Assembly: GCF_003254505.1 (NCBI RefSeq)
Contig: NZ_QFYP01000001.1
Coordinates: 914,001 to 978,000 of the forward strand
DNA length: 64,000 nt
Direction: 5' to 3'
From: Phenylobacterium hankyongense
GTDB lineage: Bacteria > Pseudomonadota > Alphaproteobacteria > Caulobacterales > Caulobacteraceae
Below, one piece after another: positions 2,631 through 47,577 of the stretch. Both the position numbers and the translations under genes were made by a program. The notes beneath the pieces are model-generated. The model was not told the DNA's origin, did no database searches, and was given only the letters and a program-made list of their open reading frames with translations. Numbering within the stretch: position 1 is the stretch's first letter; every line of letters starts with the position of its first letter.

Positions 2631-3413
2631 TCAGAGCCCCTTGAACACCCCCGCCCGCCGCTCCGCCACCGAGCGCACGCCCTCGGCGAAGTCGTCGGTC
2701 ACCCGCAGGATGGATTGCTCGCGGTGCTCGATCGCGGTCTGCGCGCGGACCTGGGCGGCCAGCCCCTGGCGCAGGGTCTTGCGGGTGGAGATCACCGCCA
2801 GCGGGGCGTTCTCGGCGATCTCGCCGGCCAGGCGCAGGGCGGCGGCGCGCAGCTCCGTCTGCGGAACAACTTCGTCCACCAGGCCCCAGGCGAGGCCCTC
2901 CTCGGCCTTGATCCGCCGGCCGGTGAGGAACATCAGGTTGGCCCGCTGCACGCCCACCAGGCGCGGCAGGGTGTAGGTCAGGCCGAACCCCGGGTGGAAG
3001 CCGAGCTTGACGAAGTTGGCGACGAAGCGGGCTTCCGGCGCGGCGACGCGGAAGTCGGCCACCAGCGCCAGGCCCAGGCCCGCGCCCACCGCCGAGCCCT
3101 GCACCGCCGCGACGATCGGCGTCTCCACCGAGAACAGCCGCACCGCCTGGTCATAGAGGGCCGAGACCCCGCCCATGCCGGAGGCGACGCTGTCGCCGGG
3201 GCTGGAAAAGTCGGCCCCGCCGCAGAAGGTCTTGCCCTGGCTCTGCAGCACGATGGCCCGCGCGCCGCGCGTGCCATCGACGGCCTCCAGGGCGTCGGCG
3301 AGGTCGCGCATCAGCTCCACGGAGACGAAGTTGTGCGGCGGCTTGTCGATGGTCGCCACCGCCACGTGGCCGTCCATGGCCACCGTCACATGGTCCCCGA
3401 ACGCGGATTTCAT
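2631..3413 (-). CDS. Crotonase-fold protein (enoyl-CoA hydratase/isomerase family) lacking hydratase glutamates
   Basis: This 260-residue protein has the crotonase fold: an oxyanion-hole region around CGGADFS (64-70), GSAVGAGLGLALVADF (106-121) and a LTGRRIKAEEGLAWGLVDEVV segment. Classical hydratases carry catalytic glutamates in PExxLG and AMEM. Here the corresponding positions are Phe134 (NFVKLG) and Leu160 (ANLM), so simple enoyl-CoA hydration is doubtful; isomerase, thioesterase-like or another CoA chemistry is possible. The start overlaps the stop of the upstream acyl-CoA dehydrogenase by four bases, so the two are translationally coupled. The frame stays open upstream inside the dehydrogenase, but that extension is a shadow; the ATG at 3413 gives the family's usual length. 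Confidence 0.85.
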   Translation of the reverse strand: MKSAFGDHVTVAMDGHVAVATIDKPPHNFVSVELMRDLADALEAVDGTRGARAIVLQSQGKTFCGGADFSSPGDSVASGMGGVSALYDQAVRLFSVETPIVAAVQGSAVGAGLGLALVADFRVAAPEARFVANFVKLGFHPGFGLTYTLPRLVGVQRANLMFLTGRRIKAEEGLAWGLVDEVVPQTELRAAALRLAGEIAENAPLAVISTRKTLRQGLAAQVRAQTAIEHREQSILRVTDDFAEGVRSVAERRAGVFKGL

Positions 3414-4576
3414 CGTCTCGTCCCCAGAAGGTTGCGGGCCACGACCATTTTGTGGACCTCGGTCGGGCCGTCGTAGATCCGCATGGTGCGCAGCCGCGAG
3501 GCCATCAGCTGCAGCGGCAGTTCCTTGGTCATGCCCATGGCCCCGAAGGTCTGCATGGCGCGGTCGACGACCTCCCAGGCCATCTCGGTGGCGTAGGCCT
3601 TGATCATCGAGATTTCCTGCCGCACGTCGCGGCCCTGGTCCAGTTTCCAGGCGCAGTCGTAGGTCATCAGCCGCGCGGCGTGGATGCGGGTGGCGGCGTC
3701 GGCCACCCACCACTGGATCGCCTGGCGCTCGGACAGCGGCAGGCCGAAGGTCTTCCGCTGCGGGGCGTACTCGCAGATCATGTCCAGCGCCCGCTGCGCC
3801 ATGCCGATCGACCACGACGCCATCTCGATCCGCCGGGTCCCGAGCCGCAGCTGCATCGGGGCGAAGCCCGCGCCCTCCTGCCCCAGGAGCTTCCAGCCCT
3901 CGACCCGGCAGTCCTCCAGCGCGATCTCGTAGGTCGCCGCCCCGCCGATCATCGGGATGCGCCGCAGCACGTTGAAGCCGGGCGTGCCCTTGTCGACCAG
4001 GAAGGCGGAGATGCCGCCGCGGGCCCGCTTCTCCCTGTCGGTCACCGCCATGACGATGGTGAAGTCGGCGTCCGCGGCGCGGCTTATCCAGGTCTTTCGG
4101 CCGTTGAGGATCCAGTCCTCGCCGTCGCGCTCGGCGCGGGTGACCATGCCGGCGGGATCGGCGCCCGCGCCCGGCTCGGAGATGCCGATCGCCGAGATCG
4201 TCTCGCCCCGGACATAGGGCTCGAGGTAGGCCTTGCGCTGCGGCGCGTTCACCGTGGCCATCAGCATCCGCAGGTTCGGGCTGTCGGGCGGCAGGGTGTA
4301 GGGCGTGACCGTGCGGCCCAGCTCCTCGTTGACGCCGACCATGGCCACCATCGGCAGGTCGGCGCCGCCGATGTCCTCCGGGGCGTCCAGGCCCCACAGG
4401 CCGAGCGCGCGGGAAACCTCGTCCAGCCGCTTGTGCTCGGCGGGGCCGAGACCCAGGCCCTCGCCGGCCGCCTCGCGGGCCAGCACCGCCGGCTCCAGCG
4501 GCAGGAGCTCGTCGCGGACGAACCGCGTGACCAGGTCCTTGAGCATGCGGTGCTCTTCGGAAACGTCGAAGTCCAC
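3410..4576 (-). CDS. Acyl-CoA dehydrogenase
   Basis: This 388-residue flavoprotein should oxidise an acyl-CoA to the trans-2-enoyl-CoA, passing electrons to ETF. It has the three-part acyl-CoA dehydrogenase layout: helical N-terminus, a middle beta domain with ISEPGAGADPAGM and WILNGRKTWIS, and a C-terminal helical domain with IYDGPTEVHKMVVARNLL. The YDG(P) form, in place of the YEGT of short and medium-chain enzymes, is characteristic of ACAD10/11-like or FadE17-like members, so the substrate may be long, branched or hydroxylated. It is the promoter-proximal gene of a two-gene unit with the crotonase and is divergent from a CoA-transferase gene. Confidence 0.93.
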   Translation of the reverse strand: MDFDVSEEHRMLKDLVTRFVRDELLPLEPAVLAREAAGEGLGLGPAEHKRLDEVSRALGLWGLDAPEDIGGADLPMVAMVGVNEELGRTVTPYTLPPDSPNLRMLMATVNAPQRKAYLEPYVRGETISAIGISEPGAGADPAGMVTRAERDGEDWILNGRKTWISRAADADFTIVMAVTDREKRARGGISAFLVDKGTPGFNVLRRIPMIGGAATYEIALEDCRVEGWKLLGQEGAGFAPMQLRLGTRRIEMASWSIGMAQRALDMICEYAPQRKTFGLPLSERQAIQWWVADAATRIHAARLMTYDCAWKLDQGRDVRQEISMIKAYATEMAWEVVDRAMQTFGAMGMTKELPLQLMASRLRTMRIYDGPTEVHKMVVARNLLGTRR

Positions 4577-4648: not shown

Positions 4649-5869
4649 ATGGCGCGAGCCAAGCAGCTGGCGACGGAGGCCACCGGGCCGCTGGCCGGGA
4701 TCCGCATCCTGGACCTCACCAGCGTCGTCAACGGCGCCTACGCCACCCAGATCCTCGCCGACCAGGGCGCCGACGTGATCAAGCTGGAGGACCCGGGCTC
4801 CGGCCGCGGCGCCGGCGGCGACATCATGCGCTGGGCGGGCCATGTGCCGGACGGCGCGCCGCGCGACATGGGCCCGATCTTCCTGACCATCAACCGCAAC
4901 AAGCGCTCGGTGCTGCTGGACCTCAAGCAGGCCAGCGCCGTGCGGGCGCTGAAGCGGTTGATCCGCAGCTGCGACGTGTTCGCCGCGTCCGTGCGCTACG
5001 AGGGGCTGACGCGGCTGGGCCTGGGCTATGAGGACGTCAAGGCGATCCGGCCGGACATCGTCTACGTCCACGCCGCGGGCTACGGCTCGGACGGGCCCTA
5101 CGCCGGCGAGCCGGCCTACGACGACCTGATCCAGTCCGCCTCGGGCCTGGCCGACATCCTGCCGCGCACGGACGGCAATCCGGTCCCGCGCATCCTGCCG
5201 ACCCTGGTGGCCGACAAGGTCTCCGGCCTGTTCATGGCCCAGGCGGTGACCGCGGCCCTGCTGCACCGCGCCCGCACCGGCGAGGGCCAGTTCGTCGAGG
5301 TGCCGATGCTGGAGTGCGTCACCAGCTTCACCCTGGTGGAGCACCTCTACGACCACGCCTTCGAGCCGCCGACCGGCCAGTGGGGCTATTCGCGGGTGGT
5401 CAATCCGCACCGCAAGCCGTTCCGGACCCAGGACGGCTACATCGGACTTCTTCCGTATACGGACAAGCAGTGGGACCAGTTCTTCGAGGTCGCCGGCTGG
5501 GGCGACAGCCTCGCCAAGGACCCGCGGTTCTCCGACTACGCCGCGCGCGCCAAGCACACCCACGAGCTCTACGCCCTGGTGGAGACGGTCACCGAAACCA
5601 AGACCACCGACGCGTGGCTGGCCTTGCTCAAGCCGCTGTCGATCCCGGTGGTGAAGACCAACCGGCTGGACGACCTGGAGAGCGATCCGCACCTGGCCGC
5701 CGTCGGCCTCTTCGAGCAGTACGAGCACCCCGAGGTCGGGACCTACAAGGCGCTGCGCCCGCCGGTGCGGTTTTCCGCCACCCCCTCCAACATCCGCCGC
5801 CACCCGCCCCGCCTCGGCGAGCACACCGACGAAGTGCTGGCCGAGCTCGGCGAGGACGAGACGGCCTGA
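4649..5869 (+). CDS. Class III CoA-transferase (CaiB/BaiF family)
   Basis: This 406-residue protein should move CoA between carboxylic acids, or from a succinyl or acetyl donor. The family layout is clear: N-terminal GPLAGIRILDLTSVVNGAYATQ, GADVIKLEDP, NRNKRSVLLDL, and the AYDDLIQSASG segment carrying the family's catalytic Asp. The frame is open for over 1 kb upstream, antisense to the dehydrogenase, but ATG 4649, preceded by AGGGGAGG, gives the family length. It is divergent from the dehydrogenase-crotonase pair and probably makes or recycles the CoA thioester they use. The substrate cannot be told from sequence. Confidence 0.93.
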   Translation: MARAKQLATEATGPLAGIRILDLTSVVNGAYATQILADQGADVIKLEDPGSGRGAGGDIMRWAGHVPDGAPRDMGPIFLTINRNKRSVLLDLKQASAVRALKRLIRSCDVFAASVRYEGLTRLGLGYEDVKAIRPDIVYVHAAGYGSDGPYAGEPAYDDLIQSASGLADILPRTDGNPVPRILPTLVADKVSGLFMAQAVTAALLHRARTGEGQFVEVPMLECVTSFTLVEHLYDHAFEPPTGQWGYSRVVNPHRKPFRTQDGYIGLLPYTDKQWDQFFEVAGWGDSLAKDPRFSDYAARAKHTHELYALVETVTETKTTDAWLALLKPLSIPVVKTNRLDDLESDPHLAAVGLFEQYEHPEVGTYKALRPPVRFSATPSNIRRHPPRLGEHTDEVLAELGEDETA

Positions 5870-5877
5870 GACTGAAG

Positions 5878-6111
5878 TTCCTCCCCCGCTGGGGGAGGGG
5901 GACCGCGAAGCGGTGGAGGGGGTCGGCGCGAACCTCGGAGGACCCCCTCAGTCGGCTTCGCCGACAGCTCCCCCGGAAGGGGAGCAACTTGGTCGCTTAG
6001 TTCCTCCCCCGCTGGGGGAGGGGGACCGCGAAGCGGTGGAGGGGGTCAGCACGAACCTTGGAGGCCCCCCTCAGTCGCTTCGCGACAGCTCCCCCAAAGG
6101 GGGAGCAACTG
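5878..6111. repeat. Tandem pair of about 112-bp complex palindromic intergenic elements
   Basis: Two near-identical units (5878-5990 and 6001-6111) lie head to tail between convergent genes. Each starts TTCCTCCCCCGCTGGGGGAG, contains the internal dyad ACCGCGAAGCGGT, a GTGGAGGGGGTC block, a middle stretch that varies, a second dyad around CTTCGC, and ends in CTCCCCC...GGGGAGCAACT. The first 47 bases are identical in the two units. A diverged relative lies at 35534-35684. Such elements are common in intergenic DNA of Caulobacterales; their function is not established. They could fold into strong RNA stem-loops. Confidence 0.85.
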
Positions 6112-6118
6112 GGCGGCG

Positions 6119-6535
6119 CTAGGCCGGCGCGAACACCGGAACCGGCGGGCCGCCTTCGGTGTCCTGGAAGCGGACATTGACGCGCTGGCCGATGGTCAGG
6201 CCGTCGGGCGCCACGCCGACGAAGTTGGTCAGCACCGCCGGGCCCTCGTCGAGGGTCACGTAGCCGATGGCGTAGGGGCCGGTCGGCGAGCGATGCATCA
6301 CCGAGTAGCTGTAGATCACCCCCTCGCCCGGGCTCTCCTCCCACACCGTCTCGCCGGACATGCAGAACGGGCAGATGGCGCGCGGGTACCAGTGGGCCTT
6401 GCCGCAGGGGACGCAGCGCTTGATCAGGAAGCGGCCTTCGCGGGCGGCGTCCCAGAACGGCTGGCTCTCGACGTTGACCACCGGCGCGGGGATCGGCCGG
6501 GTCATCAGGGCGGGCTTCTCTTGGGTCTCTGACAT
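6119..6535 (-). CDS. DUF35 OB-fold protein with rubredoxin-like zinc ribbon
   Basis: This 138-residue protein has the two-part DUF35 layout: an N-terminal zinc ribbon with four cysteines (C41-x2-C44 and C55-x2-C58), then an OB fold (IYSYSVMH ... AIGYVTLDEGP). DUF35 proteins bind acyl-CoA and act as obligate partners of thiolase-like enzymes; in steroid side-chain degradation such a domain works with an Ltp-type thiolase-like retro-aldolase. The thiolase-like gene lies directly upstream, with its stop four bases before this ATG, strongly suggesting a complex. I chose ATG 6535 (MSETQEK) over the longer open frame because upstream residues overlap the partner gene and look non-coding. Confidence 0.88.
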   Translation of the reverse strand: MSETQEKPALMTRPIPAPVVNVESQPFWDAAREGRFLIKRCVPCGKAHWYPRAICPFCMSGETVWEESPGEGVIYSYSVMHRSPTGPYAIGYVTLDEGPAVLTNFVGVAPDGLTIGQRVNVRFQDTEGGPPVPVFAPA

Positions 6536-6539
6536 GTCC

Positions 6540-7715
6540 TTAAGCCTCCCGCTCGAGGATGACGGTGGCGGAGCCATGGCGCGTGCCGAGCGATCCGCCG
6601 GTGCCGTGGGCGATGGCCAGGTCGCAGTTGGGGACCTGCACCTTCGGGTGGGCTTCGCCGCGCAGCTGGCGCACCGCCTCGATCACCTTGGTGATGCCGC
6701 CGCGGTTGGTGGGGTGGTTGTTGCAGAGGCCGCCGCCGTCGGTGTTGAACGGCAGCTTGCCGACCCCGGAGATCAGGTTTCCGTCGGCGACGAACCGGCC
6801 GCCCTGGCCCTTCTCGCAGAAGCCCAGGTCCTCCAGCTGCATCAGCACGGTGATGGTGAAGCTGTCGTAGATCGAGGCGTACTTCATGTCGGCCGGGGTC
6901 ACGCCGGCTTCCGCAAAGGCGCGCGGACCGGACCAGACCGCGCCGGAGTGGGTGAGGTCGAGGTCGAGGCCGCCGCGCGGGCCCTTCGGCGCCTCGCCTG
7001 CCCCCATCACCTTGACCTTCGGCCGGTTCAGGCTCCTCGCCACCTCCGGCGAGGTGACGATCAGCGCGCCGCCGCCGTCGGTCACCACGCAGCAATCCAG
7101 GAGGTGCAGCGGGTCGGAGATCATCCGCGAGTTCACCACCTCCTCGACGGTGACCACGTTCTTCAGGAAGGCGTGCTCGTTCCACTGGGCGTGGTGCGAG
7201 GCCGCGACCTTGATCCAGGCCAGCTGCTCCGACGTGGTGCCGTACTCGTACATGTGGCGCATGGCGCACATGCCGTAGGTGTTGTGGGTCGAGCCGCCGT
7301 AGATGTTCTCGAAGCCGGCTTCCGGCGCGGGCTCGCCCCCGCCGCCGCCCCGCCCGCCGCCGCCCTTCTGCTGGCGCGGACGACCGGCCAGCGTGATCAG
7401 CGCCACCTGGCACTTGCCCGCGGCGATCGCCTGGGCCGCGTGGCCGACGTGGACGATGTAGGAGGAGCCGCCGGTCTCGGTGGAGTCCATGTGGCGGACG
7501 TTCTTCAGGCCCATGTAGTCGATCATCGACAGGGCCCCGAACCCCGGCGCGTCGCCGGCGCAGAAGAAGCCGTCGACGTCGTCCTTGGTCAGGCCGGCGT
7601 CCTCCAGCGCGCCGCGGGCGCACTCGGCGTGAAGCTGCGGGGTGGATTTGTCGGGGGCGTCGCGGAGCGGATGCTCATACGCCCCCATGATGTAGGCCTT
7701 GCCCTTGATGCTCAT
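6540..7715 (-). CDS. SCP2-type thiolase-like protein (lipid-transfer protein family), nucleophilic Cys missing
   Basis: This 391-residue protein has the thiolase fold of the SCP-x/Ltp family, seen in a late DxxxIYDSFT motif (about 278-287), DGGG near 326-329 and HGTGGSLGTRHG near the end. At the place of the nucleophilic cysteine of true thiolases it has STETGGSSYIV (78-88) with no Cys, which is what retro-aldolases of the Ltp type show. There is also a glycine-rich insert (KGGGGRGGGGG, 117-127). The downstream neighbour is a DUF35 protein, the usual partner. Together they probably cleave a side chain or a beta-hydroxyacyl-CoA rather than thiolyse a beta-ketoacyl-CoA; the substrate is unknown. 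A putative operator sits 11 bases upstream of the ATG. Confidence 0.88.
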   Translation of the reverse strand: MSIKGKAYIMGAYEHPLRDAPDKSTPQLHAECARGALEDAGLTKDDVDGFFCAGDAPGFGALSMIDYMGLKNVRHMDSTETGGSSYIVHVGHAAQAIAAGKCQVALITLAGRPRQQKGGGGRGGGGGEPAPEAGFENIYGGSTHNTYGMCAMRHMYEYGTTSEQLAWIKVAASHHAQWNEHAFLKNVVTVEEVVNSRMISDPLHLLDCCVVTDGGGALIVTSPEVARSLNRPKVKVMGAGEAPKGPRGGLDLDLTHSGAVWSGPRAFAEAGVTPADMKYASIYDSFTITVLMQLEDLGFCEKGQGGRFVADGNLISGVGKLPFNTDGGGLCNNHPTNRGGITKVIEAVRQLRGEAHPKVQVPNCDLAIAHGTGGSLGTRHGSATVILEREA

Positions 7716-7725
7716 AATCCTCGCC

Positions 7726-7740
7726 GAACAATCGTTTGAA
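7726..7740. promoter_or_regulatory. Putative operator, copy A of TTCAAACGNTTGTT
   Basis: GAACAATCGTTTGAA (reverse TTCAAACGATTGTTC) lies 11 bases upstream of the thiolase-like gene's ATG. Nearly the same sequence occurs upstream of an acyl-CoA ligase (9455) and between fadJ and an SDR gene (37845). The near-palindromic core CAAnCGnTTG and positions close to start codons suggest binding by a repressor, probably TetR-type. The regulator is not known. Confidence 0.5.
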
Positions 7741-7780
7741 GTATGCGGTGGGCTTAGCGCGGCCATCCCACGGCTGTCAT

Positions 7781-7811
7781 CCCGGAAAGCCGCGCCAGCG
7801 GCTTGTCCGGG
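7781..7811. repeat. Small palindromic (REP-like) element
   Basis: CCCGGA, A, AGCCGC, loop GCCA, GCGGCT, TG, TCCGGG form a long imperfect hairpin in the gap between the ligase (ending 7838) and the thiolase-like gene. It resembles the element at 55383-55414 (ATCCCGGG-AGCCG-CGCAA-CGGCT) and is a member of a dispersed family in this genome. Confidence 0.6.
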
Positions 7812-7837
7812 CCCATGAACACCGGCCGTGCGGGCGG

Positions 7838-9310
7838 TTACGCCGGCTCCGCGGCCTTGATCCGGGCGTCGCGCAGCGCGGTGCGGCGGACCTTGCCGGC
7901 GTCGTCGCGCAGCGGCTCGTCGACGAACTCGAATGAGCGCGGCTGCTTGTAGCTGACCAGCCGGTCGGCCAGGTGGGCCTTGAGCGCCTCCGGCGTCACC
8001 TCGCCCTTGGCGTTGACGATGGCGTGGATGCGGTTGCCGAGGTCGTCGTCGGGCAGGCCGATCACCGCGCAGGACTGCACCGCCGGGTGCTCCTCCAGCG
8101 CCGCCTCGATCTCGGCCGGATAGACGTTGGAGCCGCCGACCAGGATCATGTCGGTGCGCCGGTCGGCCAGGTAGAGGTAGCCGTCGGCGTCGAACCAGCC
8201 GATGTCGCCCAGGCTCTCCCAGCCCCCCGGCAGCACGTTGGCCTCGGCGCCCACGTACTGGTAGGTCGGCGGCGCGTCGGCGGCGCGGCGCATGTAGATC
8301 TCGCCGACCTCGCCCGGCGGCAGCTCGCGGCCGTCCTCGCCCACCGCCTTCATCTCGCCGGCGGTGACCCGCCCCACCGAGCCGCGATGCTCCAGCCACT
8401 CGGCGCCGGAGATGATGGTCACCGCCTGCGCCTCGGTGCCGGCGTAGAGCTCCATCACCTTCTCCGGCCCGACCCAGCGGATGAAGGCCTCCTTCAGCCA
8501 CGCCGGACAGGGCGCCGCCAGGTGCCAGAGGGTCTCCAGCGAGCCGATGTCGTATTGCGCGCGCACGGCGTCGGGCAGATGCCAGATGCGGTTCATCATG
8601 GTCGGCACCAGGTAGACCCAGGTGGCGCGGCGCCGTTCGATCTCGGCCAGCGTGGCCTCGGGATCGAACCTCGGCATCACCACCAGGTGGCAGCCCATGG
8701 CCACGGCGGCCATCATCATGCCGAAGCCGGCGTTGTGGTAGAGCGGCGCGGGCAGGACGGCGATGGAATCGGGCTTCAGCCGCCAGCCGCCGATCTCCGG
8801 CGTCTCCGACGCCGTGGTCCCCGGCTGCCCAGACAGGATCAGCTTCGGCCGGCCGGTGGAGCCGCCGCTGGTCGGCGCCTTGGAGATCGGCGCGGTCGCG
8901 TCCGGCAGGTCGCTGTCGTCGTCGGACTCCGCGGCGATCTCGGCGATGGAGACCAGCGGCCGGTCGATCTCATGCTTGAACTCGGCGATGACGATCGGCG
9001 TCTTGGCCAGCGCCATGATCGCCTCCAACTCGCCCTTCGGCAGGCGGAAGGACACCGGCTGCGGCGTCGCCCCCAGCTTCCAGATCGCGTAGCAGGCCTC
9101 CACGAAGCCGACGCCGTTCGGCAGGCCCAGCGTCACCAGGTCGCCGTGCTTGACGCCCAGCGCCTGCAGGCCGCGGGCGAGGCGATTGGTCCGTCGGTGC
9201 AGCTCGGCGTAGCTGTGGGTGGTGTCGCCGCAACTGACGGCCGGGGCGTTCGGCTGGAAGCGGGCGTGCTGCGCCAGCTTCGCGCCCAGGGAAATGAGCT
9301 CTTCGGACAT
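7838..9310 (-). CDS. Acyl-CoA synthetase (AMP-forming ligase)
   Basis: This 490-residue enzyme should activate a carboxylic acid to its CoA thioester with ATP. ANL-family motifs are present: the P-loop-like TSGGSTGRPKL, ELYAGTEAQ, the hinge region YLADRRTDMILVGGSNVYPAEIE, and the C-terminal lysine in DDAGKVRR. I chose ATG 9310 (MSEELISL) because GGGACGAG lies just upstream and the family begins here; the longer frame to 9595 overlaps the divergent ligase. It is on the same strand as the thiolase-like/DUF35 pair downstream and may belong to the same pathway. The substrate is not predictable, although the context suggests a fatty or alicyclic acid. Confidence 0.92.
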   Translation of the reverse strand: MSEELISLGAKLAQHARFQPNAPAVSCGDTTHSYAELHRRTNRLARGLQALGVKHGDLVTLGLPNGVGFVEACYAIWKLGATPQPVSFRLPKGELEAIMALAKTPIVIAEFKHEIDRPLVSIAEIAAESDDDSDLPDATAPISKAPTSGGSTGRPKLILSGQPGTTASETPEIGGWRLKPDSIAVLPAPLYHNAGFGMMMAAVAMGCHLVVMPRFDPEATLAEIERRRATWVYLVPTMMNRIWHLPDAVRAQYDIGSLETLWHLAAPCPAWLKEAFIRWVGPEKVMELYAGTEAQAVTIISGAEWLEHRGSVGRVTAGEMKAVGEDGRELPPGEVGEIYMRRAADAPPTYQYVGAEANVLPGGWESLGDIGWFDADGYLYLADRRTDMILVGGSNVYPAEIEAALEEHPAVQSCAVIGLPDDDLGNRIHAIVNAKGEVTPEALKAHLADRLVSYKQPRSFEFVDEPLRDDAGKVRRTALRDARIKAAEPA

Positions 9311-9479: not shown

Positions 9480-11039
9480 ATGTCGGTCGAAGAGATGCTG
9501 GCCCAGGAGTTCGGGACCCTGGCCGACGTGATCCGCGAGCAGGCGCGCGAGCTGAGCGACAAGCCGGCGCTGGTCGACGCCCGGCGCACCATCACCTACG
9601 CCGAGCTCGACGAGCTGATGGACCGGATCGCGGTGGCCCTGCAGCGCGAGGGGGTCGGCAAGGCCGACGTGGCGGCGATCTGCGCCAGCTCCTCGGCGGA
9701 GTACGGCGCGACCTTCTTCGGCATCCTGCGGGCCGGCGCGATCGTCGCGCCGCTGGCGCCCTCCTCGACCGCGGAGAGCCTGATCGTCCAGCTGAACGAC
9801 AGCGGGGCCAAGGTCTTCTTCCTGGACGCGGGCGTGGCGCAGGCCATGGCCGGCGTCATGGACCAGGTGACCGCCAAACGCGTCTCGCTGGACGGCTCCG
9901 ACGCCGGCGCGCCGTTCGAGCAGTGGCTCGCGCCGGCGGGCTCGAAACCGGCGCCGGTGGAGGTCGAGCCGGACCAGGGCTTCAACATCATCTATTCCTC
10001 CGGCACCACCGGCGCGCCGAAGGGCATCGTCCAGCCGCACCGGATGCGCTGGGGCCAGATCCGCCGCGGGGTCTATCCGGCCGACGCGGTGACCATGGTC
10101 TCCACGCCGCTCTATTCGAACACCACCCTGGTCTCCTTCCTGCCGACGCTGTCCAACGGCGGCACCGCGGTGCTGATGCCGAAGTTCGACGCCGAGCAGT
10201 TCCTGAAGCTGTCGGAGCGGCACCGCGCCACCCACGCCATGCTGGTGCCGGTGCAGTACCGGCGGCTGATGGAGCGGCCGGACTTCGACAGCTACGACCT
10301 CGCGAGCTACCGGATGAAGTTCTCCACCTCGGCGCCGTTCTCCGCCGCCCTGAAGGCCGACATCCTGAAGCGCTGGCCGGGCGGTCTGATCGAGTATTAC
10401 GGGATGACCGAGGGCGGCGGCTCCTGCGGCCTGGTGGCCCACGAATACCCCGACAAGCTGCACACCGTCGGCAAGCCCCTGCCCGGCCACGACATCCGGC
10501 TGATCGACGAGGACGGGCGCGAGGTCGCGCAGGGCGAGGTCGGCGAGGTGGTCGGCCGCTCCGGCGCGATGATGGTCGGCTACCACAACCAGCCCGGCAA
10601 GACCTCGGAGGCCGAGTGGTGGAGCCCGGAGGGGCTGCGCTACATCCGCACCGGCGATGTCGGCCGCTTCGACGAGGACGGCTTCCTGACGCTCATGGAC
10701 CGCAAGAAGGACATGATCATCTCCGGCGGCTTCAACATCTATCCCAGCGACCTGGAGGCCGAGCTCGGCCAGCACGAGGCGGTGCTGGAATCCGCCGTGG
10801 TCGGCGTGCCCTCCGACAACTGGGGCGAGACGCCGGTGGCCTTCGTGGCGCTGAAGCCGGGCCGCCCGATCGCCGCCGAGGCGCTGAAGGCCTGGCTGAA
10901 CGGCCGGGTCGGCAAGACCCAGCGGCTGGCCGACCTGCAGATCGTCGAGGCCCTGCCGCGCAGCCACATCGGCAAGGTCCTGAAGCGCGAGCTGCGCGAC
11001 GCCTACCAGGCCCCGGCGACCGCTCGGAAGGGGTCGTGA
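9480..11039 (+). CDS. Acyl-CoA synthetase (AMP-forming ligase)
   Basis: This 519-residue ANL-family ligase is distinct from the divergent one at 7838. Motifs: IIYSSGTTGAPKG, YYGMTEGGG, TGDVGRFDEDG, DRKKDMIISGGFNIYPSDLE and the catalytic-lysine region HIGKVLKRE near the C-terminus. The start is ATG 9480, preceded by GGAG at 9467; an in-frame TTG at 9465 is less likely. The stop overlaps the start of a hotdog thioesterase gene by one base, so activation and CoA-ester hydrolysis are coupled. The FNIYPSDLE form is common in long-chain and benzoate-type ligases; the substrate remains open. Confidence 0.93.
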   Translation: MSVEEMLAQEFGTLADVIREQARELSDKPALVDARRTITYAELDELMDRIAVALQREGVGKADVAAICASSSAEYGATFFGILRAGAIVAPLAPSSTAESLIVQLNDSGAKVFFLDAGVAQAMAGVMDQVTAKRVSLDGSDAGAPFEQWLAPAGSKPAPVEVEPDQGFNIIYSSGTTGAPKGIVQPHRMRWGQIRRGVYPADAVTMVSTPLYSNTTLVSFLPTLSNGGTAVLMPKFDAEQFLKLSERHRATHAMLVPVQYRRLMERPDFDSYDLASYRMKFSTSAPFSAALKADILKRWPGGLIEYYGMTEGGGSCGLVAHEYPDKLHTVGKPLPGHDIRLIDEDGREVAQGEVGEVVGRSGAMMVGYHNQPGKTSEAEWWSPEGLRYIRTGDVGRFDEDGFLTLMDRKKDMIISGGFNIYPSDLEAELGQHEAVLESAVVGVPSDNWGETPVAFVALKPGRPIAAEALKAWLNGRVGKTQRLADLQIVEALPRSHIGKVLKRELRDAYQAPATARKGS

Positions 11040-11458
11040 TGTCCGGGAACCGCGCCGAAGAGTTCGCCCGCCGGCAGGAGTCCACCCTGCCGGGCGAGCT
11101 CGGCATCCTCTGGGACGAGGTCGCCAAGGGGACGGCCCGCGGCCGCTTCACCGTGGAGCGCAAGCACATGGCGCCCAACGGCTTCCTGCACGCGGCCTCG
11201 GTGATCGCCCTAGTGGACTCCGCCTGCGGCTACGCCTGCATCGCCAGCCTGCCGGAGGGGGCGAGCGGCTTCACCACCATCGAACTGAAGGCCAACTACC
11301 TGGGCACCGCCAAGGAGGGCGAGCAGGTCTCCTGCGTCGCCCACATGCTGCACGGCGGCCGCATGACCCAGGTCTGGGACGCCGAGGCGCTGAACGAAAC
11401 CACCGGCAAGCCGATGGCGGTGTTCCGCTGCACCCAGATGATCCTCTATCCGCGCTGA
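11039..11458 (+). CDS. PaaI-type hotdog thioesterase
   Basis: This 139-residue protein has the hotdog fold of the PaaI/4HBT family: GRFTVERKHMAPNGFLHAAS with the conserved HxxxxNxxxHA-like pattern around the active site, VDSACGYA, and TTIELKANYLGTAKEG. Such enzymes hydrolyse acyl- or aryl-CoA and commonly release CoA from dead-end intermediates. Its ATG shares one base with the stop of the upstream ligase. The product is cytoplasmic, and the length is typical. Confidence 0.9.
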   Translation: MSGNRAEEFARRQESTLPGELGILWDEVAKGTARGRFTVERKHMAPNGFLHAASVIALVDSACGYACIASLPEGASGFTTIELKANYLGTAKEGEQVSCVAHMLHGGRMTQVWDAEALNETTGKPMAVFRCTQMILYPR

Positions 11459-34304: not shown

Positions 34305-35510
34305 CTAGAAGATCTCGAACAGACCCGCCGCGCCCATGCCGCCGCCGACGCACATGGTGACGACGCCGTACTTGGCCCCGCGGCGCTTGCCTTCATAGAG
34401 CAGGTGGGCGGTGCAGCGGGCGCCGGTCATGCCATACGGGTGGCCGATGGAGATCGAACCGCCGGAGACGTTCAGCTTCTCCTGCGGGATGCCGAGCTTG
34501 TCGCGGCAGTAGAGCACCTGGCTGGCGAAGGCCTCGTTCAGCTCCCACAGGTCGATGTCGTCCATGGTCAGGCCGTTGCGCTCCAGCAGCTTAGGGATCG
34601 CGAACACCGGGCCGATGCCCATCTCCTCCGGCCCGCAGCCGGCCACCGCCATGCCGCGGTAGGCGCCCAGCGGGCTGAGGCCCCGGCGCTCGGCTTCGGC
34701 GCGCTCCATCATCAGCACCGCGGCGGAGCCGTCGGAGAGCTGCGAGGCGTTGCCGGCGGTGACGAACTTGCCTTCCTGGACATAGCGGCCGCCCTTGAAC
34801 ACCGGGTTCAGCTTCTTGAGATCCTCCAGCGTGGTCTGCGGGCGGTTGCCCTCATCCATGCGGACGGTGATCTCCTTGTCCTGGGTCTCGCCGGTCTCCT
34901 TGTTGACCACCACCTTCATGACCGTGGTCATCGGCACGATCTCGTTGTCGAAGCGGCCTTCGGACTGGGCCTGGGCGGTGCGCTGCTGGGACATCAGCGC
35001 ATACTCGTCCTGCGCCTCGCGGGAGACGCCGTAGCGCTCGGCGACGATCTCGGCGGTCTCGATCATCGAGGTCTGCAGTTCCGGCACATGCTCGCGCAGC
35101 CAGGGATCGCCGGCCATGAAGCCGTTCATGTGGCCGTTCTGCACGAGGCTGATCGACTCGACGCCGCCGCCGATGGCGATCGGGGCGCCGTCGTTGATGA
35201 TGTATTTGGCGGCCGTGGCGATGGCCATCAGGCCCGAGGAGCACTGCCGGTCCATGGTCATGCCGGAGACGGTCTTCGGCAGGCCGGCGCGCAGCGCGGC
35301 CTGGCGGGCGATGTTGTTGCCCGTGGTGCCCTGCTCCAGCGCGCAGCCCATGGCCACGTCATCGATCTCGCCGGGATCGATCCCGGCCCGCTCCACCACC
35401 GCGGCGATCGAGTGGCCGGCGAGGGTCGCGCCGTAGGTGTTGTTGAAGGCCCCCCGATAGGCCTTGCCGATGGGAGTGCGGGCGGCGGAGACGATGACGG
35501 CTTCACGCAT
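34305..35510 (-). CDS. Acetyl-CoA C-acyltransferase (thiolase)
   Basis: This 401-residue enzyme is a true thiolase. The nucleophilic Cys90 is in [11 protein letters not shown], the active-site His in [10 protein letters not shown], and the second Cys in [11 protein letters not shown]. It should cleave beta-ketoacyl-CoA, the last step of beta-oxidation. The longer open frame upstream is not coding; ATG 35510 gives the family start. It lies downstream of a fadJ-type gene on the same strand, separated by a palindromic repeat, and the pair resembles fadBA. Confidence 0.95.
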
Positions 35511-35533
35511 GCGAATAGGTCCTTGGCTTGAAT

Positions 35534-35684
35534 TTTCCTCCACCGCGCTGCGGGGGAGGGGGACCATCGGCCAACGAGCCGATGGTGGAGGGGGCGAGGT
35601 CAGGCGCCGGAGTCGCGGCCGCCCCTTCCACCACTCGCTCTTCGGCGAGCGGTCCCCCTTCCCCGCGAACGGGGAAGGAAGATG
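35534..35684. repeat. Complex palindromic intergenic element, third copy
   Basis: TTTTCCTCCACCGC, GGGGGAGGGGGACC, ATCGGC...GCCGAT, GGTGGAGGGGGC at the left end and GGTCCCCCTTCCCCGCGAACGGGG at the right resemble the tandem elements at 5878-6111, though diverged in the middle. It sits between the fadJ-type gene and the thiolase gene and may fold in the shared transcript. Confidence 0.6.
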
Positions 35685-35699
35685 GCGGGGCGCGGAACA

Positions 35700-37784
<2,085 letters not shown>

Positions 37785-42427: not shown

Positions 42428-44029
<1,602 letters not shown>

Positions 44030-44066
44030 GGAACGTCTCCGGGCGGAGGTCTGCGGGCGGGCGACT

Positions 44067-44090
44067 AATATGGTCCCGAATATGGTCCCG
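44067..44090. promoter_or_regulatory. Perfect tandem 12-bp repeat upstream of aceB
   Basis: AATATGGTCCCG occurs twice, directly adjacent (44067-44078 and 44079-44090), 38 bases upstream of the aceB ATG. A tandem operator or replication slippage are both possible. It lies between the hairpin at 44097 and aceB. Confidence 0.5.
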
Positions 44091-44131
44091 AAAAGTGGCT
44101 CCCCGCCATGGCCATGTGGCGACGGGGAGCC
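44091..44131 (-). terminator. Hairpin between DUF4170 gene and aceB
   Basis: GGCTCCCCG (44097-44105) pairs with CGGGGAGCC (44123-44131). On the minus strand it is followed by ACTTTTC. It could end the aceA-DUF4170 transcript or attenuate read-through into aceB. Confidence 0.55.
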
Positions 44132-44163
44132 GTGGTCTTCGGGCGACCTAGTCTTTTGGCGAC

Positions 44164-44364
44164 CTAATTCGGCAACACCAGTTGTTCGGCGGCGATGGCG
44201 TAGCGGGCGGTGGCGCAGCTGCGGGTCTCTTCGGAGATCCGCCGCCACACGGCGCGGGCTTCGTCGCGGCTGTCGAAGGGGCCCAGCACCTGCGGCGGCC
44301 CGTTCTTCAGCGCCTTGAAGGCGAGGCAGCTGTACTCGCCGCCGACGACCCAGAAGCGTTCCAT
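44164..44364 (-). CDS. DUF4170 family small protein
   Basis: This 66-residue protein matches DUF4170: [45 protein letters not shown]. It is found in alphaproteobacteria, with unknown function. Here it lies between aceA and aceB: the aceA stop is 14 bases before the start, with GGAGAG in between, fitting ATG 44364 with six bases of spacing. The in-frame ATG 44370 would be too close to that site. Confidence 0.85.
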
Positions 44365-44378
44365 GCTCATCTCTCCGC

Positions 44379-45971
44379 TCAAGCGAACTGGTTCATGGTG
44401 TTGTGGACGCCGCCGGCCTTCAGCGCCGCTTCGCCGGCGAAGTATTCCTTGTGGTCGTCGCCGATGTCCGAGCCGGACATGTTCTGGTGCCGGACGCAGG
44501 CGATGCCCTGGCGGATCTCCTGGCGCTGGACGTTGAGGACGTAGCCCAGCATGCCCGCCGCGCCGAAGTACTCCTTGGCCAGGTTGTCGGTGGACAGCGC
44601 GGCGGTGTGATAGGTCGGCAGGGTGATCAGGTGGTGGAAGATCCCCGCCCGCTTTGCGCCGTCGGCCTGGAAGTTGCGGATCCGCTCGTCGGCCTCGATC
44701 GCCAGGTCGGTGGTGTCGTAGTCGACGCTCATCAGCCTGGCGCGGTCGTAGGCCGACACGTCCTTTCCGGCCGCGACCCAGGCGTCATAGACCTGCTGGC
44801 GGAAGTTCAGCGTCCAGTTGAACGACGGCGAGTTGTTGTAGACCAGCTTGGCGTTGGGGATGACCGCGCGGATGCGGTCCATCATGCCGGCGATCTGCTC
44901 GACGTGCGGCTTCTCGGTCTCGATCCACAGCAGGTCCGCGCCGTTCTGCAGCGAGGTGATGCTGTCCAGCACGCAGCGGTCCTCGCCGGTGCCGGGCCGG
45001 AACTGGAAGAGGTTCGAGGGCAAGCGCTTGGGCCGCAGCAGCTTGCCGTTGCGGTTGAGGATCACGTCCCCGTTGCTGAGCTTGTCGGGCGTGATCTCCT
45101 CGCAGTCGAGGAAGCTGTTGTACTGGTCGCCCAGGTCGCCCGGCGCATGGCTGACGGCGATCTGCTTGGTCAGGCCAGCGCCGAGCGAGTCGGTGCGGGT
45201 GACGATGACGCCGTTGTCGACGCCCAGTTCCAGGAAGGCGTAGCGGCAGGCGCGGACCTTGGCGAGGAAGTCCTCGTGCGGGACGGTGACCTTGCCGTCC
45301 TGGTGGCCGCACTGCTTCTCGTCGGAGACCTGGTTCTCGATCTGCAGGGCGCAGGCCCCCGCCTCGATCATCTTCTTGGCCAAGAGGTAGGTCGCCTCGG
45401 CGTTGCCGAAGCCGGCGTCGATGTCGGCGATGATCGGCACGACGTGGGTCTGGAAGTTGTCGATGGCGTCCTGCAGCGCCTCTTCCTTCGCCGCGTCGCC
45501 GGCCGCGCGGGCGGCGTCGAGGTCGCGGAACAACATCCCCAGCTCGCGGGCGTCGGCCTGGCGCAGGAAGGTGTAGAGCTCTTCGATCAGCGCCGGCACC
45601 GAGGTCTTCTCGTGCATCGACTGGTCCGGCAGCGGGCCGAACTCCGAGCGCAGCGCCGCGACCATCCACCCCGACAGGTACAGGTACTTACGGTCCGTGG
45701 TCCCGAAGTGCTTCTTGATGGAGATCATCTTCTGCTGGCCGATGAAGCCGTGCCAGCAGCCCAGCGACTGGGTGTAGTTGGCCGAGTCCGCGTCATAGGC
45801 GGCCATGTCCCGGCGCATGATGTCGGCCGTGTAGCGGGCGATCTCCAGGCCGGTCTTGAAGCGATTCTGGAGCCGCATGCGGGCCACCGATTCCGCATCG
45901 ATGCCGTCCCACGTGCCGTTCTTGCTTTGGATGAGCTGGCTCATCTCGATGATGTGGTCCTGGTAAGCCAT
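44379..45971 (-). CDS. aceA: Isocitrate lyase
   Basis: This 530-residue enzyme cleaves isocitrate to glyoxylate and succinate, the first glyoxylate-shunt step. The catalytic motif is KQCGH (Cys221), the form seen in the longer isocitrate lyases of Pseudomonas and Caulobacter rather than KKCGH. Other motifs: [27 protein letters not shown], and [11 protein letters not shown]. It leads a unit with DUF4170 and perhaps aceB, and is divergent from a RamB/ScfR-type regulator. Confidence 0.97.
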
Positions 45972-46045
45972 GTGCCTCTTCCGCGATCAGACGTACAAAT
46001 GCCCGGCCGCCGCTGTGACAAGCCTTGCAGTGGTTTAACTCTTGA

Positions 46046-46130
46046 TTTCGCTAAAGGGACAGGCGCGCCGCGTTGCGAAAAGGCGTGGGTGTCACACCCG
46101 AACCTTGTCACTATTGTAAATCTGTGACAA
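46046..46130. promoter_or_regulatory. aceA / regulator divergent operator region
   Basis: Three dyads lie here: TTTCGC (46046) with GCGAAA (46075); GGGTGT-C-ACACCC, a perfect palindrome (46087-46099); and TTGTCAC (46105-46111) with GTGACAA (46124-46130), a perfect seven-base inverted repeat spaced by 12, just upstream of the regulator's ATG at 46141. The last may be the regulator's own site. RamB-type regulators bind AT-rich sites containing TTTGC-type half sites, and the first dyad resembles these. Confidence 0.55.
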
Positions 46131-46140
46131 TCACACAGGC

Positions 46141-47577
46141 ATGGCCTTAGCCGCGACTGACCGAAAGCTGTTCCTGGGCGCCCGGATGAAACGCCTGAGG
46201 CGTGACCTGGGGCTCACCCAAACCCGCATGGCCGAGGACCTGGGCGTGTCGCCGAGCTACCTGAACCTGCTGGAACGCAACCAGCGGCCGGTGACGGCGC
46301 AGGTGCTGCTGCGGCTGGCCGAGACCTATGACCTGGATCTCAAGAGCCTGTCGTCGGATCCGGAGTCGGCCAGCGCCACGGGCCTGGCGGAGGTGTTCTC
46401 CGACCAGATGTTCCGCGACCTGGCGGTGGCCCGCCACGAGGTCGCCGAGGTCGCCGACAGCGCGCCGGGCGTCTCCGAGGCGATCGTGCGCCTCTACCGG
46501 GCCTATCTCGACCAGCGCCGGATGACCGACCTCGGCGCGGTCGGCCGGCCCGAGGACGGCGCGCCGCAGCCGGTGGTGATGCCGTCCGACTGGGTGCGCG
46601 ACTTCATCCAGGCCCAGAAGAACTATTTCGGCGACCTGGAGGAGGCCGCCGATGCGCTCTCCGCCGAGCTGAAGCCCGAGCCGCAGGACTTCGCCGGCGC
46701 GGCGCGCGCCCGGCTGGCGGCCAGGCACGGCATCCAGGTGCGGGTGGTGCCGGTGGATGTGCTGCCGGAGAGCGTGCGCCGGTTCGACCACCATCGCCGC
46801 CGGCTGTTCCTGTCCGAGGTGCTGACCGGGGCCGGCCGCGCCTTCTCGCTGGCCTACCAGCTGGCGGTGCTGGAGAACGGCGAGCTGCTGGAGGCCCTGG
46901 CCGAGCGCGCCGCGCCCCCCGACCGGCCGACCCGCAACCTCTTGAAGGTCAGCCTCGCCAACTATCTGGCCGCCGCGGTGCTGATGCCCTACGCCGCCTT
47001 CCACGACGCGGCCGAACACACCGCCTACGACATCGAGCTGATCCGCGCCCGGTTCGGGGTCTCGTTCGAACAGGCCTGCCACCGGCTGACCACGATGGCG
47101 CGGCCGGGCGCGCGGGGCGTGCCCTTCTTCATGGTGCGGGTGGATTCGGCCGGCAACATCTCCAAGCGGTTCGCGGGCTCGGCCTTCCCGTTTTCGCGCT
47201 TCGGCGGCGCCTGCCCGCGCTGGAACATCCACTCCAGCTTCCGCACCCCCAGCCGCATCGTCACCCAGATCGTCGAGACGCCGGACGGCCAGCGCTACTT
47301 CACCATGGCCCGCACCGTGGCGCGCATCGCCACCCCCTACGCGGGCGAGGATTCCGAGCTCGCCATCGGCATGGGCTGCGAGCTGAAATACGCCGAGCGC
47401 CTGGTCTATTCGCGCGGCCTCGACCTGAAGGAGCCGGTGGCCACCCCGATCGGGCCGGCGTGCCGGATCTGCGAGCGGCCGGCCTGCCCGCAGCGCGCGG
47501 CCGAGCCGATCAGCCGTACGCTGACGGTGGACGATTTCACCAAGTCGATCTCGCCCTACCCGTTCGCCTCGACCTGA
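46141..47577 (+). CDS. RamB/ScfR-type transcriptional regulator (XRE HTH + short-chain acyl-CoA sensor domain)
   Basis: This 478-residue protein has an N-terminal XRE helix-turn-helix (MKRLRRDLGLTQTRMAEDLGVSPSYLNLLERNQRP), then an IrrE-like (M78) region and a C-terminal DUF2083-type domain with a Cys-rich CRICERPACPQR motif. This is the family of short-chain fatty acyl-CoA regulators (RamB, MccR, ScfR) that control glyoxylate and methylcitrate genes. Position divergent from aceA strongly suggests that it regulates the glyoxylate shunt. Confidence 0.92.
   Translation: MALAATDRKLFLGARMKRLRRDLGLTQTRMAEDLGVSPSYLNLLERNQRPVTAQVLLRLAETYDLDLKSLSSDPESASATGLAEVFSDQMFRDLAVARHEVAEVADSAPGVSEAIVRLYRAYLDQRRMTDLGAVGRPEDGAPQPVVMPSDWVRDFIQAQKNYFGDLEEAADALSAELKPEPQDFAGAARARLAARHGIQVRVVPVDVLPESVRRFDHHRRRLFLSEVLTGAGRAFSLAYQLAVLENGELLEALAERAAPPDRPTRNLLKVSLANYLAAAVLMPYAAFHDAAEHTAYDIELIRARFGVSFEQACHRLTTMARPGARGVPFFMVRVDSAGNISKRFAGSAFPFSRFGGACPRWNIHSSFRTPSRIVTQIVETPDGQRYFTMARTVARIATPYAGEDSELAIGMGCELKYAERLVYSRGLDLKEPVATPIGPACRICERPACPQRAAEPISRTLTVDDFTKSISPYPFAST

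Follow-up and report, generated by a model that had tools for sequence, protein, structure and literature searches.

Which reaction does a thiolase-like protein catalyze if it lacks the thiolase nucleophile? In the genome of Phenylobacterium hankyongense (3.84 Mb), such a protein is encoded next to a DUF35 gene, within a stretch of 64,000 nucleotides that we analyzed as a whole (the window). Public labels for these proteins and their relatives, such as "thiolase domain-containing protein" or "acetyl-CoA acetyltransferase," invite an assignment to thiolysis where the needed cysteine is missing. A first-pass annotation of the window proposed instead that the pair is a retro-aldolase. From sequence comparisons, a predicted fold, and the gene neighborhood, we think it fairly likely that the pair forms a heteromeric retro-aldolase, in which a subunit with the thiolase fold is joined by a DUF35 subunit. 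The point of interest is the invariant set of residues in this protein's own clade, not the missing cysteine alone. The features that we discuss are listed in Table 1.

Table 1. Genes and active-site codons at the locus (positions within the window)
Feature	Position	Strand	Length	Remarks
Thiolase-fold protein, PRK08142 subfamily	6540..7715	-	391 aa	Predicted (by sequence) catalytic subunit of a retro-aldolase
DUF35 / ChsH2-type partner gene	6119..6535	-	138 aa	Zinc ribbon CxxC-x10-CxxC and OB fold
Gly83 codon	7467..7469	-		Column of the thiolase nucleophilic Cys; Gly in 116/116 of the clade
Gly-rich run KGGGGRGGGGG	7335..7367	-		Residues 117-127, within the variable loop between beta4 and alpha4
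Tyr283 (YDSF) codon	6867..6869	-		Equivalent to base Tyr294 of TcLtp2 and Tyr302 of CtSal
Ser285 codon	6861..6863	-		Column of CtSal acid Cys304 and TcLtp2 His296
Cys331 codon	6723..6725	-		Invariant in the clade; Ser in 34/44 more distant homologs
His334 (NNHP) codon	6714..6716	-		Column of TcLtp2 acid Tyr344, CtSal Gln352, and the His of the thiolase GHP motif
First acyl-CoA synthetase, immediately before the pair	7838..9310	-		Start chosen by similarity to the homolog at locus L036
Second, divergent acyl-CoA synthetase	9480..11039	+		Start chosen by eye
Small ORF after the second synthetase	11039..11458	+		Possible thioesterase, by look alone; homologs in 5/20 loci
Family III CoA-transferase (CaiB type)	4649..5869	+
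Acyl-CoA dehydrogenase	3410..4576	-
Enoyl-CoA hydratase family protein	2631..3413	-

The TAA stop of the thiolase-like gene and the ATG of the DUF35 gene are separated by four bases (GGAC, 6536-6539), exactly as in the first-pass annotation. That annotation also described the thiolase-like protein as cysteine-less, with STETGGSSYIV (residues 78-88) at the nucleophile position. This is accurate for the catalytic columns but not for the protein as a whole, which contains nine cysteines (residues 32, 52, 102, 150, 208, 209, 300, 331, and 364). None of these lies in the nucleophile column, which both HMMER and MAFFT alignments assign to Gly83, or in the column of the catalytic Cys304 of CtSal, a bile acid side-chain aldolase. 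To describe the clade, we used 116 distinct sequences (70 from genome contigs, 38 from genome-search matches, and 8 from plasmids), with loci assigned to the clade by our own profile at 500 bits or above; this set is weighted towards Phenylobacterium and Bradyrhizobium. Nine active-site residues are invariant across all 116 sequences: G83, Y147, Y283, D284, S285, F286, C331, N333, and H334.

In SCP2-type and biosynthetic thiolases, the N-terminal active-site helix begins at the nucleophilic Cys, where this protein has Gly83, and the His-Asp-x-Phe motif of SCP2-type thiolases is YDSF here. The matching nucleophile motif contains Cys in PDB entries 7yvy, 7pxp (BbsB), 6esq, and 6hsj, and the ordinary thiolase that is encoded in the same window (34305-35567) keeps its Cys as well (MDRQCSSG). 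We compared these two positions across 44 more distant homologs and four PDB sequences. The His-Asp motif is found in all nine sequences with Cys in the nucleophile column; in the other 39, the His is replaced by Tyr (38 sequences) or Phe (1 sequence). Three further PDB thiolases (7pxp, 6esq, and 6hsj) fit the same rule. Since these changes correspond to essentially one split on the tree, we consider the coupling between loss of the Cys and the switch from HD to YD to be a consistent marker and not a series of many independent events.

Two related aldolases have assigned catalytic residues. TcLtp2 is reported to use Tyr294 (in YDHF) as the base and Tyr344 as the acid, and CtSal is reported to use Tyr302 as the base and Cys304 (in YDCY) as the acid, with Gln352 in the column of Tyr344 and a Gly where thiolases have their nucleophile (PMC12329534). 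We mapped these residues by counting along pairwise alignments, which reproduces the published numbers for both proteins. The base is retained as Tyr283, but neither acid is. Tyr344 is replaced by His334 throughout the clade, so the acid of Ltp2 would be unusable. The CtSal dyad is reduced to its Tyr, with Ser285 instead of the Cys; since changing Cys304 to Ser is reported to abolish the activity of CtSal (PMC12329534), the clade could not use that dyad as described, and a different acid must be assumed. By sequence, the obvious candidate for the general acid is His334, which is retained from the GHP position of thiolases, and Cys331 is the alternative. The residues of the PRK08142 clade are thus a third set, unlike that of Ltp2 and unlike that of Sal. 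The first-pass annotation had noted that a Cys in the active site would argue against an aldolase; neither catalytic column has one, but the invariant Cys331 is just three residues before His334. Among 36 more distant Cys-free homologs, the column of His334 contains His in 15 and Tyr in 15.

The protein belongs to an existing subfamily that has no functional name. It matches the NCBIfam model PRK08142 (NF006010) over positions 1-388 of 388 with 737.8 bits (the cut-off is 462), and it is well below the cut-off for PRK07855, the Ltp2 subfamily (219.6 versus 469 bits). To our knowledge, no activity has been described for any member of PRK08142. A literature search for PRK08142, NF006010, or 4U4E found no relevant paper; most subscription papers were outside its scope.

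We examined the placement of the subfamily with a quick tree (70 rows, with a warning about long branches) and a careful tree (60 rows, after dropping 10 long rows; the warning remains for three joins). In the careful tree, the thiolases with Cys form one group (support of 100/100), Ltp2 lies in another (100/97), and Sal lies in a third (97/88). The PRK08142 clade (100/100) and 4u4e, a putative thiolase from Sphaerobacter thermophilus, fall inside the group with Sal, which places the clade in the Cys-free half of the tree (100/100) and closer to Sal than to Ltp2. A clade that joins the PRK08142 group with TcLtp2 and IpfD is rejected on the 70 rows by the approximately unbiased (AU) test (p = 5e-89). 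Given this result, the subfamily scores, and the replacement of the acid Tyr344 by His334, the label "Ltp-type" from the first-pass annotation should be dropped. Clustering with true thiolases, which that annotation had named as evidence against its proposal, appears in neither tree, but the AU test, run on the 70 rows, fails to reject a union of the clade with the Cys thiolases (p = 0.169), and this cautions against over-reading the tree.

An AlphaFold2 model of the single chain, built with 25 close sequences, has the thiolase fold (pTM 0.83, mean pLDDT 74) and matches 9myr, the CtSal-CtShyDUF35 structure, at 3.0 Å over 367 residues. The catalytic loops at 82-84 and 328-337 are of low confidence (pLDDT under 50). 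By sequence, the closest solved chains are 4u4e (299 bits), 9myr (179 bits), and 6ok1, which is TcLtp2-ChsH2DUF35 (158 bits), with the best thiolase at 149 bits; the Foldseek ranking begins in the same order. The VIA Z scores of the model differ little: 43.3 for 9myr, 41.9 for 6ok1, 41.9 for 4u4e, and 40.1 for the best thiolase.

Each of these structures resembles the pair in some respects and differs in others. Like our protein, CtSal has a DUF35 partner, Gly in the nucleophile column, the base Tyr (Y302, our Y283), and Tyr165 (our Y147), and the careful tree puts it in one group with the clade; but its acid Cys304 is Ser285 here and its Gln352 is His334. Also, the zinc site of the Shy DUF35 is C3H1, versus C4 by sequence here, and our DUF35 is encoded by a separate gene. 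TcLtp2 and IpfD share the fold, the DUF35 partner, the Gly, and the base (Y294), but they form a separate clade, with Tyr344 in place of His334 and His296 in place of Ser285. The best match by sequence in the PDB, 4u4e, whose entry title assigns it no function, has YDSF, HP, and the Gly, but it has Ser in the column of the clade's Cys331, and its neighbor on the tree is a PRK06158-like paralog from the host genome. The fold is common to BbsAB (7pxp, benzoylsuccinyl-CoA thiolase), 6esq (archaeal acetoacetyl-CoA thiolase), and 6hsj (SCP2-thiolase), and the first two have DUF35 partners as well; but all three have the Cys nucleophile and the His-Asp motif that the PRK08142 protein lacks.

The partner passes the Pfam cut-offs for both domains of DUF35 (OB_ChsH2_C, 74.7 bits versus 27.1; zf-ChsH2, 45.2 bits versus 23.2). 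By domain coordinates, a DUF35 gene is directly downstream in 115 of the 116 distinct clade sequences, and in the exception, Variovorax sp. WDL1, a zinc-ribbon OB-fold gene lies about 5 kb away. Instead of the Cys3His1 zinc finger of Sal, the motif CxxC-x10-CxxC is found here and in 131 of 136 DUF35 genes of the clade (a count that includes overlapping loci). In three loci (L054, L061, and L096), the DUF35 gene has lost three of the four zinc-ribbon cysteines while the PRK08142-type pairing is kept. Such partners are reported to be important for some aldolases: in C. testosteroni TA441, aldolase activity requires DUF35 (PMC12502768), and in M. neoaurum, a stand-alone DUF35 of 138 amino acids is the key partner gene beside the aldolase Atf1 (PMC10398937). 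The predicted complex would probably be an alpha2beta2 heterotetramer. But DUF35 subunits are also reported in benzoylsuccinyl-CoA thiolase, archaeal acetoacetyl-CoA thiolase, and the acylase PhlABC (PMC12329534). Because DUF35 serves true thiolases too, it reveals the architecture and not the reaction, and we rejected the pairing as proof of an aldolase; it does not argue for one, as the first-pass annotation had supposed. The proposal of a retro-aldolase rather than a thiolase is supported by the absence of the Cys, the Tyr of the YDxF motif, and the coupling between the two.

The Gly-rich run in the thiolase-like protein had been singled out as an unusual insert. It turns out to be part of a loop that varies across 30 orthologs and, in the 113 clade sequences that fit our search pattern (three of the 116 did not), ranges from 15 to 36 residues in length and from 0 to 44% Gly. 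The loop is probably disordered as well as hypervariable: the model has pLDDT under 50 at residues 113-144, which span it, and part of the matching loop in CtSal (127-135) is reported to be disordered in the crystal (PMC12329534). Given this variability, the low pLDDT, and the well-conserved flanks, we do not consider the insert to be a functional module, and it is nothing new. Among the loops listed, the eight richest in Gly all belong to Phenylobacterium or to other members of its family.

The ortholog is nearly universal in Phenylobacterium: it is present in 36 of 39 sampled genomes, including this one (E ≤ 4e-127). Of the other three, one has only a 41% identical paralog and two have no match. 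(Another 51 genomes without a match were taken to be from other genera, based on the order in which they were listed.) When 398 genomes from the phylum were sampled, 24 had a PRK08142 member that scored above the NCBIfam cut-off, and none of 14 control genomes had one. The clade also includes many loci from Bradyrhizobium and plasmid-borne genes from Variovorax, Delftia, Methylobacterium, Rhodococcus, Phaeobacter, Rhizobium, and the haloarchaeon Halomarina. Matches on plasmids of Cupriavidus are 69-75% identical.

The genes around the pair in this genome have counterparts at other loci. Near the pair in ten loci from the same genus (L036-L044 and L046), we found homologs of the CoA-transferase, the dehydrogenase, and the hydratase in eight each, of the upstream synthetase in six, and of edd, glk, or eda in seven. 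We also counted neighbors within 8 kb using tblastn; these counts include overlapping copies of some loci and incomplete contigs. Among 28 Phenylobacterium-type loci (a few of which are from other Caulobacteraceae), 21 have the CoA-transferase, 19 a synthetase, 17 the dehydrogenase, and 14 the hydratase; just one has a short-chain dehydrogenase (SDR) and none has a FadB-type protein. This set provides for activation, desaturation, and hydration, with no 3-hydroxyacyl dehydrogenase nearby, a combination that fits aldol cleavage. In the Bradyrhizobium group (47 loci within L092-L142, other taxa included), 43 have an SDR, 42 a MaoC hydratase, and 3 an acyl-CoA dehydrogenase. The 24 other loci, which include L068, L079, L080, L081, and L087 from Phenylobacterium or Caulobacteraceae, have an SDR in 10, a synthetase in 8, and the dehydrogenase, the hydratase, and the CoA-transferase in 7 each. 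We had hoped to guess the substrate from the two synthetases, but we dropped this because the best 25 of 104 and of 107 NCBIfam models all scored below cut-off.

Elsewhere in the window, an ordinary thiolase and a FadB-type 3-hydroxyacyl-CoA dehydrogenase/hydratase (34305-37784, minus strand) form a standard beta-oxidation pair. Malate synthase and isocitrate lyase of the glyoxylate shunt (minus strand) are at 42428-47577, beside a short-chain fatty acyl-CoA regulator (plus strand). Between the CoA-transferase and DUF35 genes, 5876-6113 contains a 79-nt direct repeat in two copies (95% identical) and a 31-nt repeat, also in two copies. The core of these repeats occurs nowhere else in the window, and the whole resembles an intergenic REP-type element.

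Our best reading is that the pair acts in an acyl-CoA pathway for a non-steroid substrate that is nearly universal in Phenylobacterium. What follows is our inference as to the chemistry, the roles of acid and base, the complex, and the order of the steps. The neighboring synthetase or the CoA-transferase would form the acyl-CoA, which the acyl-CoA dehydrogenase would desaturate and the hydratase would convert to a beta-hydroxyacyl-CoA. Tyr283 would then take the proton from the beta-hydroxyl group and the Calpha-Cbeta bond would break, with no covalent acyl-enzyme. The resulting acyl-CoA enolate would be protonated, most likely by His334, and the products would be acetyl-CoA or propionyl-CoA and an aldehyde or a ketone.

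A non-steroid substrate is plausible because the host genome has no member of the Ltp2 subfamily (PRK07855) above the cut-off and because a DUF35-paired member is reported to carry out a retro-aldolase cleavage in the degradation of ibuprofen, which yields propionyl-CoA and 4-isobutylcatechol (PMC9195938). The corresponding gene on pIBU218 is putatively ipfD, judging from the plasmid, the flanking IS6100 elements, and the annotation. The encoded protein belongs to PRK07855 (583.2 bits) and scores 475 bits against TcLtp2, which implies that Ltp2-type chemistry has already been reported outside of steroids. The pair on pIBU218 also adjoins CaiB and hydratase genes, as the pair does here.

Could the pair instead act on a 3-ketoacyl-CoA or a similar compound without a covalent intermediate, by hydrolysis, decarboxylation, or a Claisen-type condensation? 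In many relatives, SDR genes adjoin the pair or lie close to it; these enzymes could form the keto substrate, and such SDR-rich sets would fit this idea. Also, the Cys-free TbSLP is reported to decarboxylate malonyl-CoA, but at just 0.005 per second, and CtSal is reported to lack that activity (PMC12329534). Given that SDR and FadB-type genes are rare or absent at the Phenylobacterium-type loci and that the base Tyr is the one found in aldolases, we consider this reading unlikely; the SDRs in related clusters could also convert the product, whether an aldehyde or a ketone. It seems quite improbable that the protein is still a thiolase with another nucleophile. Cys331 is conserved throughout the clade near His334, but this is no mark of a replaced nucleophile, since that column is also Cys in three of eight homologs that have the ordinary Cys nucleophile (and Ser in four). 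The other candidate is residue 84, which is Cys in 42 of the 116 clade sequences (all from loci of the Bradyrhizobium group), but it is Ser in 72, including this protein. The switch from HD to YD that accompanies the loss of the Cys also argues against thiolysis.

The fold and the DUF35 partner are the same as in Ltp2 and Sal, so might the pair be a close functional equivalent that acts on steroid side chains? This is very improbable, as the clade is separate from Ltp2, its residues in the acid columns differ from both, it is found in nearly the whole genus and in many Bradyrhizobium, and the host genome lacks an Ltp2-subfamily gene above the cut-off. Also, among 20 further proteins from the window that we scanned with general Pfam models, we recognized no names from steroid-ring degradation. 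As for a catalytically dead scaffold or a lipid-binding protein, "lipid-transfer protein" is a common label among the relatives. We give this almost no credence, because the invariance of Y283, D284, S285, F286, N333, and H334 would not be expected at a dead site.

We return to the retro-aldolase. A broader proposal, about which we have slightly more doubt than belief, is that the clade represents a third catalytic solution in the thiolase-fold DUF35 aldolases, with Tyr283 as the base, His334 as the acid, and possibly help from Cys331 and Ser285, and that it ends a widespread, non-steroid, aldolytic shortcut of beta-oxidation, from Alphaproteobacteria to haloarchaea. If the retro-aldolase reading is right, ordinary acyl-CoA catabolism includes aldol cleavage by a widespread family, which is due for re-annotation. 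It would also offer a biocatalyst for forming C-C bonds whose active-site chemistry is distinct from that of Ltp2 and Sal, and it would indicate that the His of thiolases can take on a new use after the Cys is lost.

Other thiolase-like proteins came up in these searches. The P. hankyongense genome encodes a second Cys-free paralog about 110 kb away (7055-8263 of locus L145, or 805144-806253 of the contig), which is 40% identical and has the motif YDAF; it is closest to PRK06158 but below the cut-off (380.3 versus 421 bits, with part of the protein scored). A record labeled "Frankia sp. RB7" (L093) contains a 75% identical member that falls amid matches from Bradyrhizobium and shares their Cys84, so it might be mislabeled or reflect a transfer. 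One Phenylobacterium genome (G178) has at least nine thiolase-like homologs at E ≤ 1e-20 (9 of 30 candidates were scored), which is the highest number among the genomes listed, and these include several different variants of the YDxF motif.
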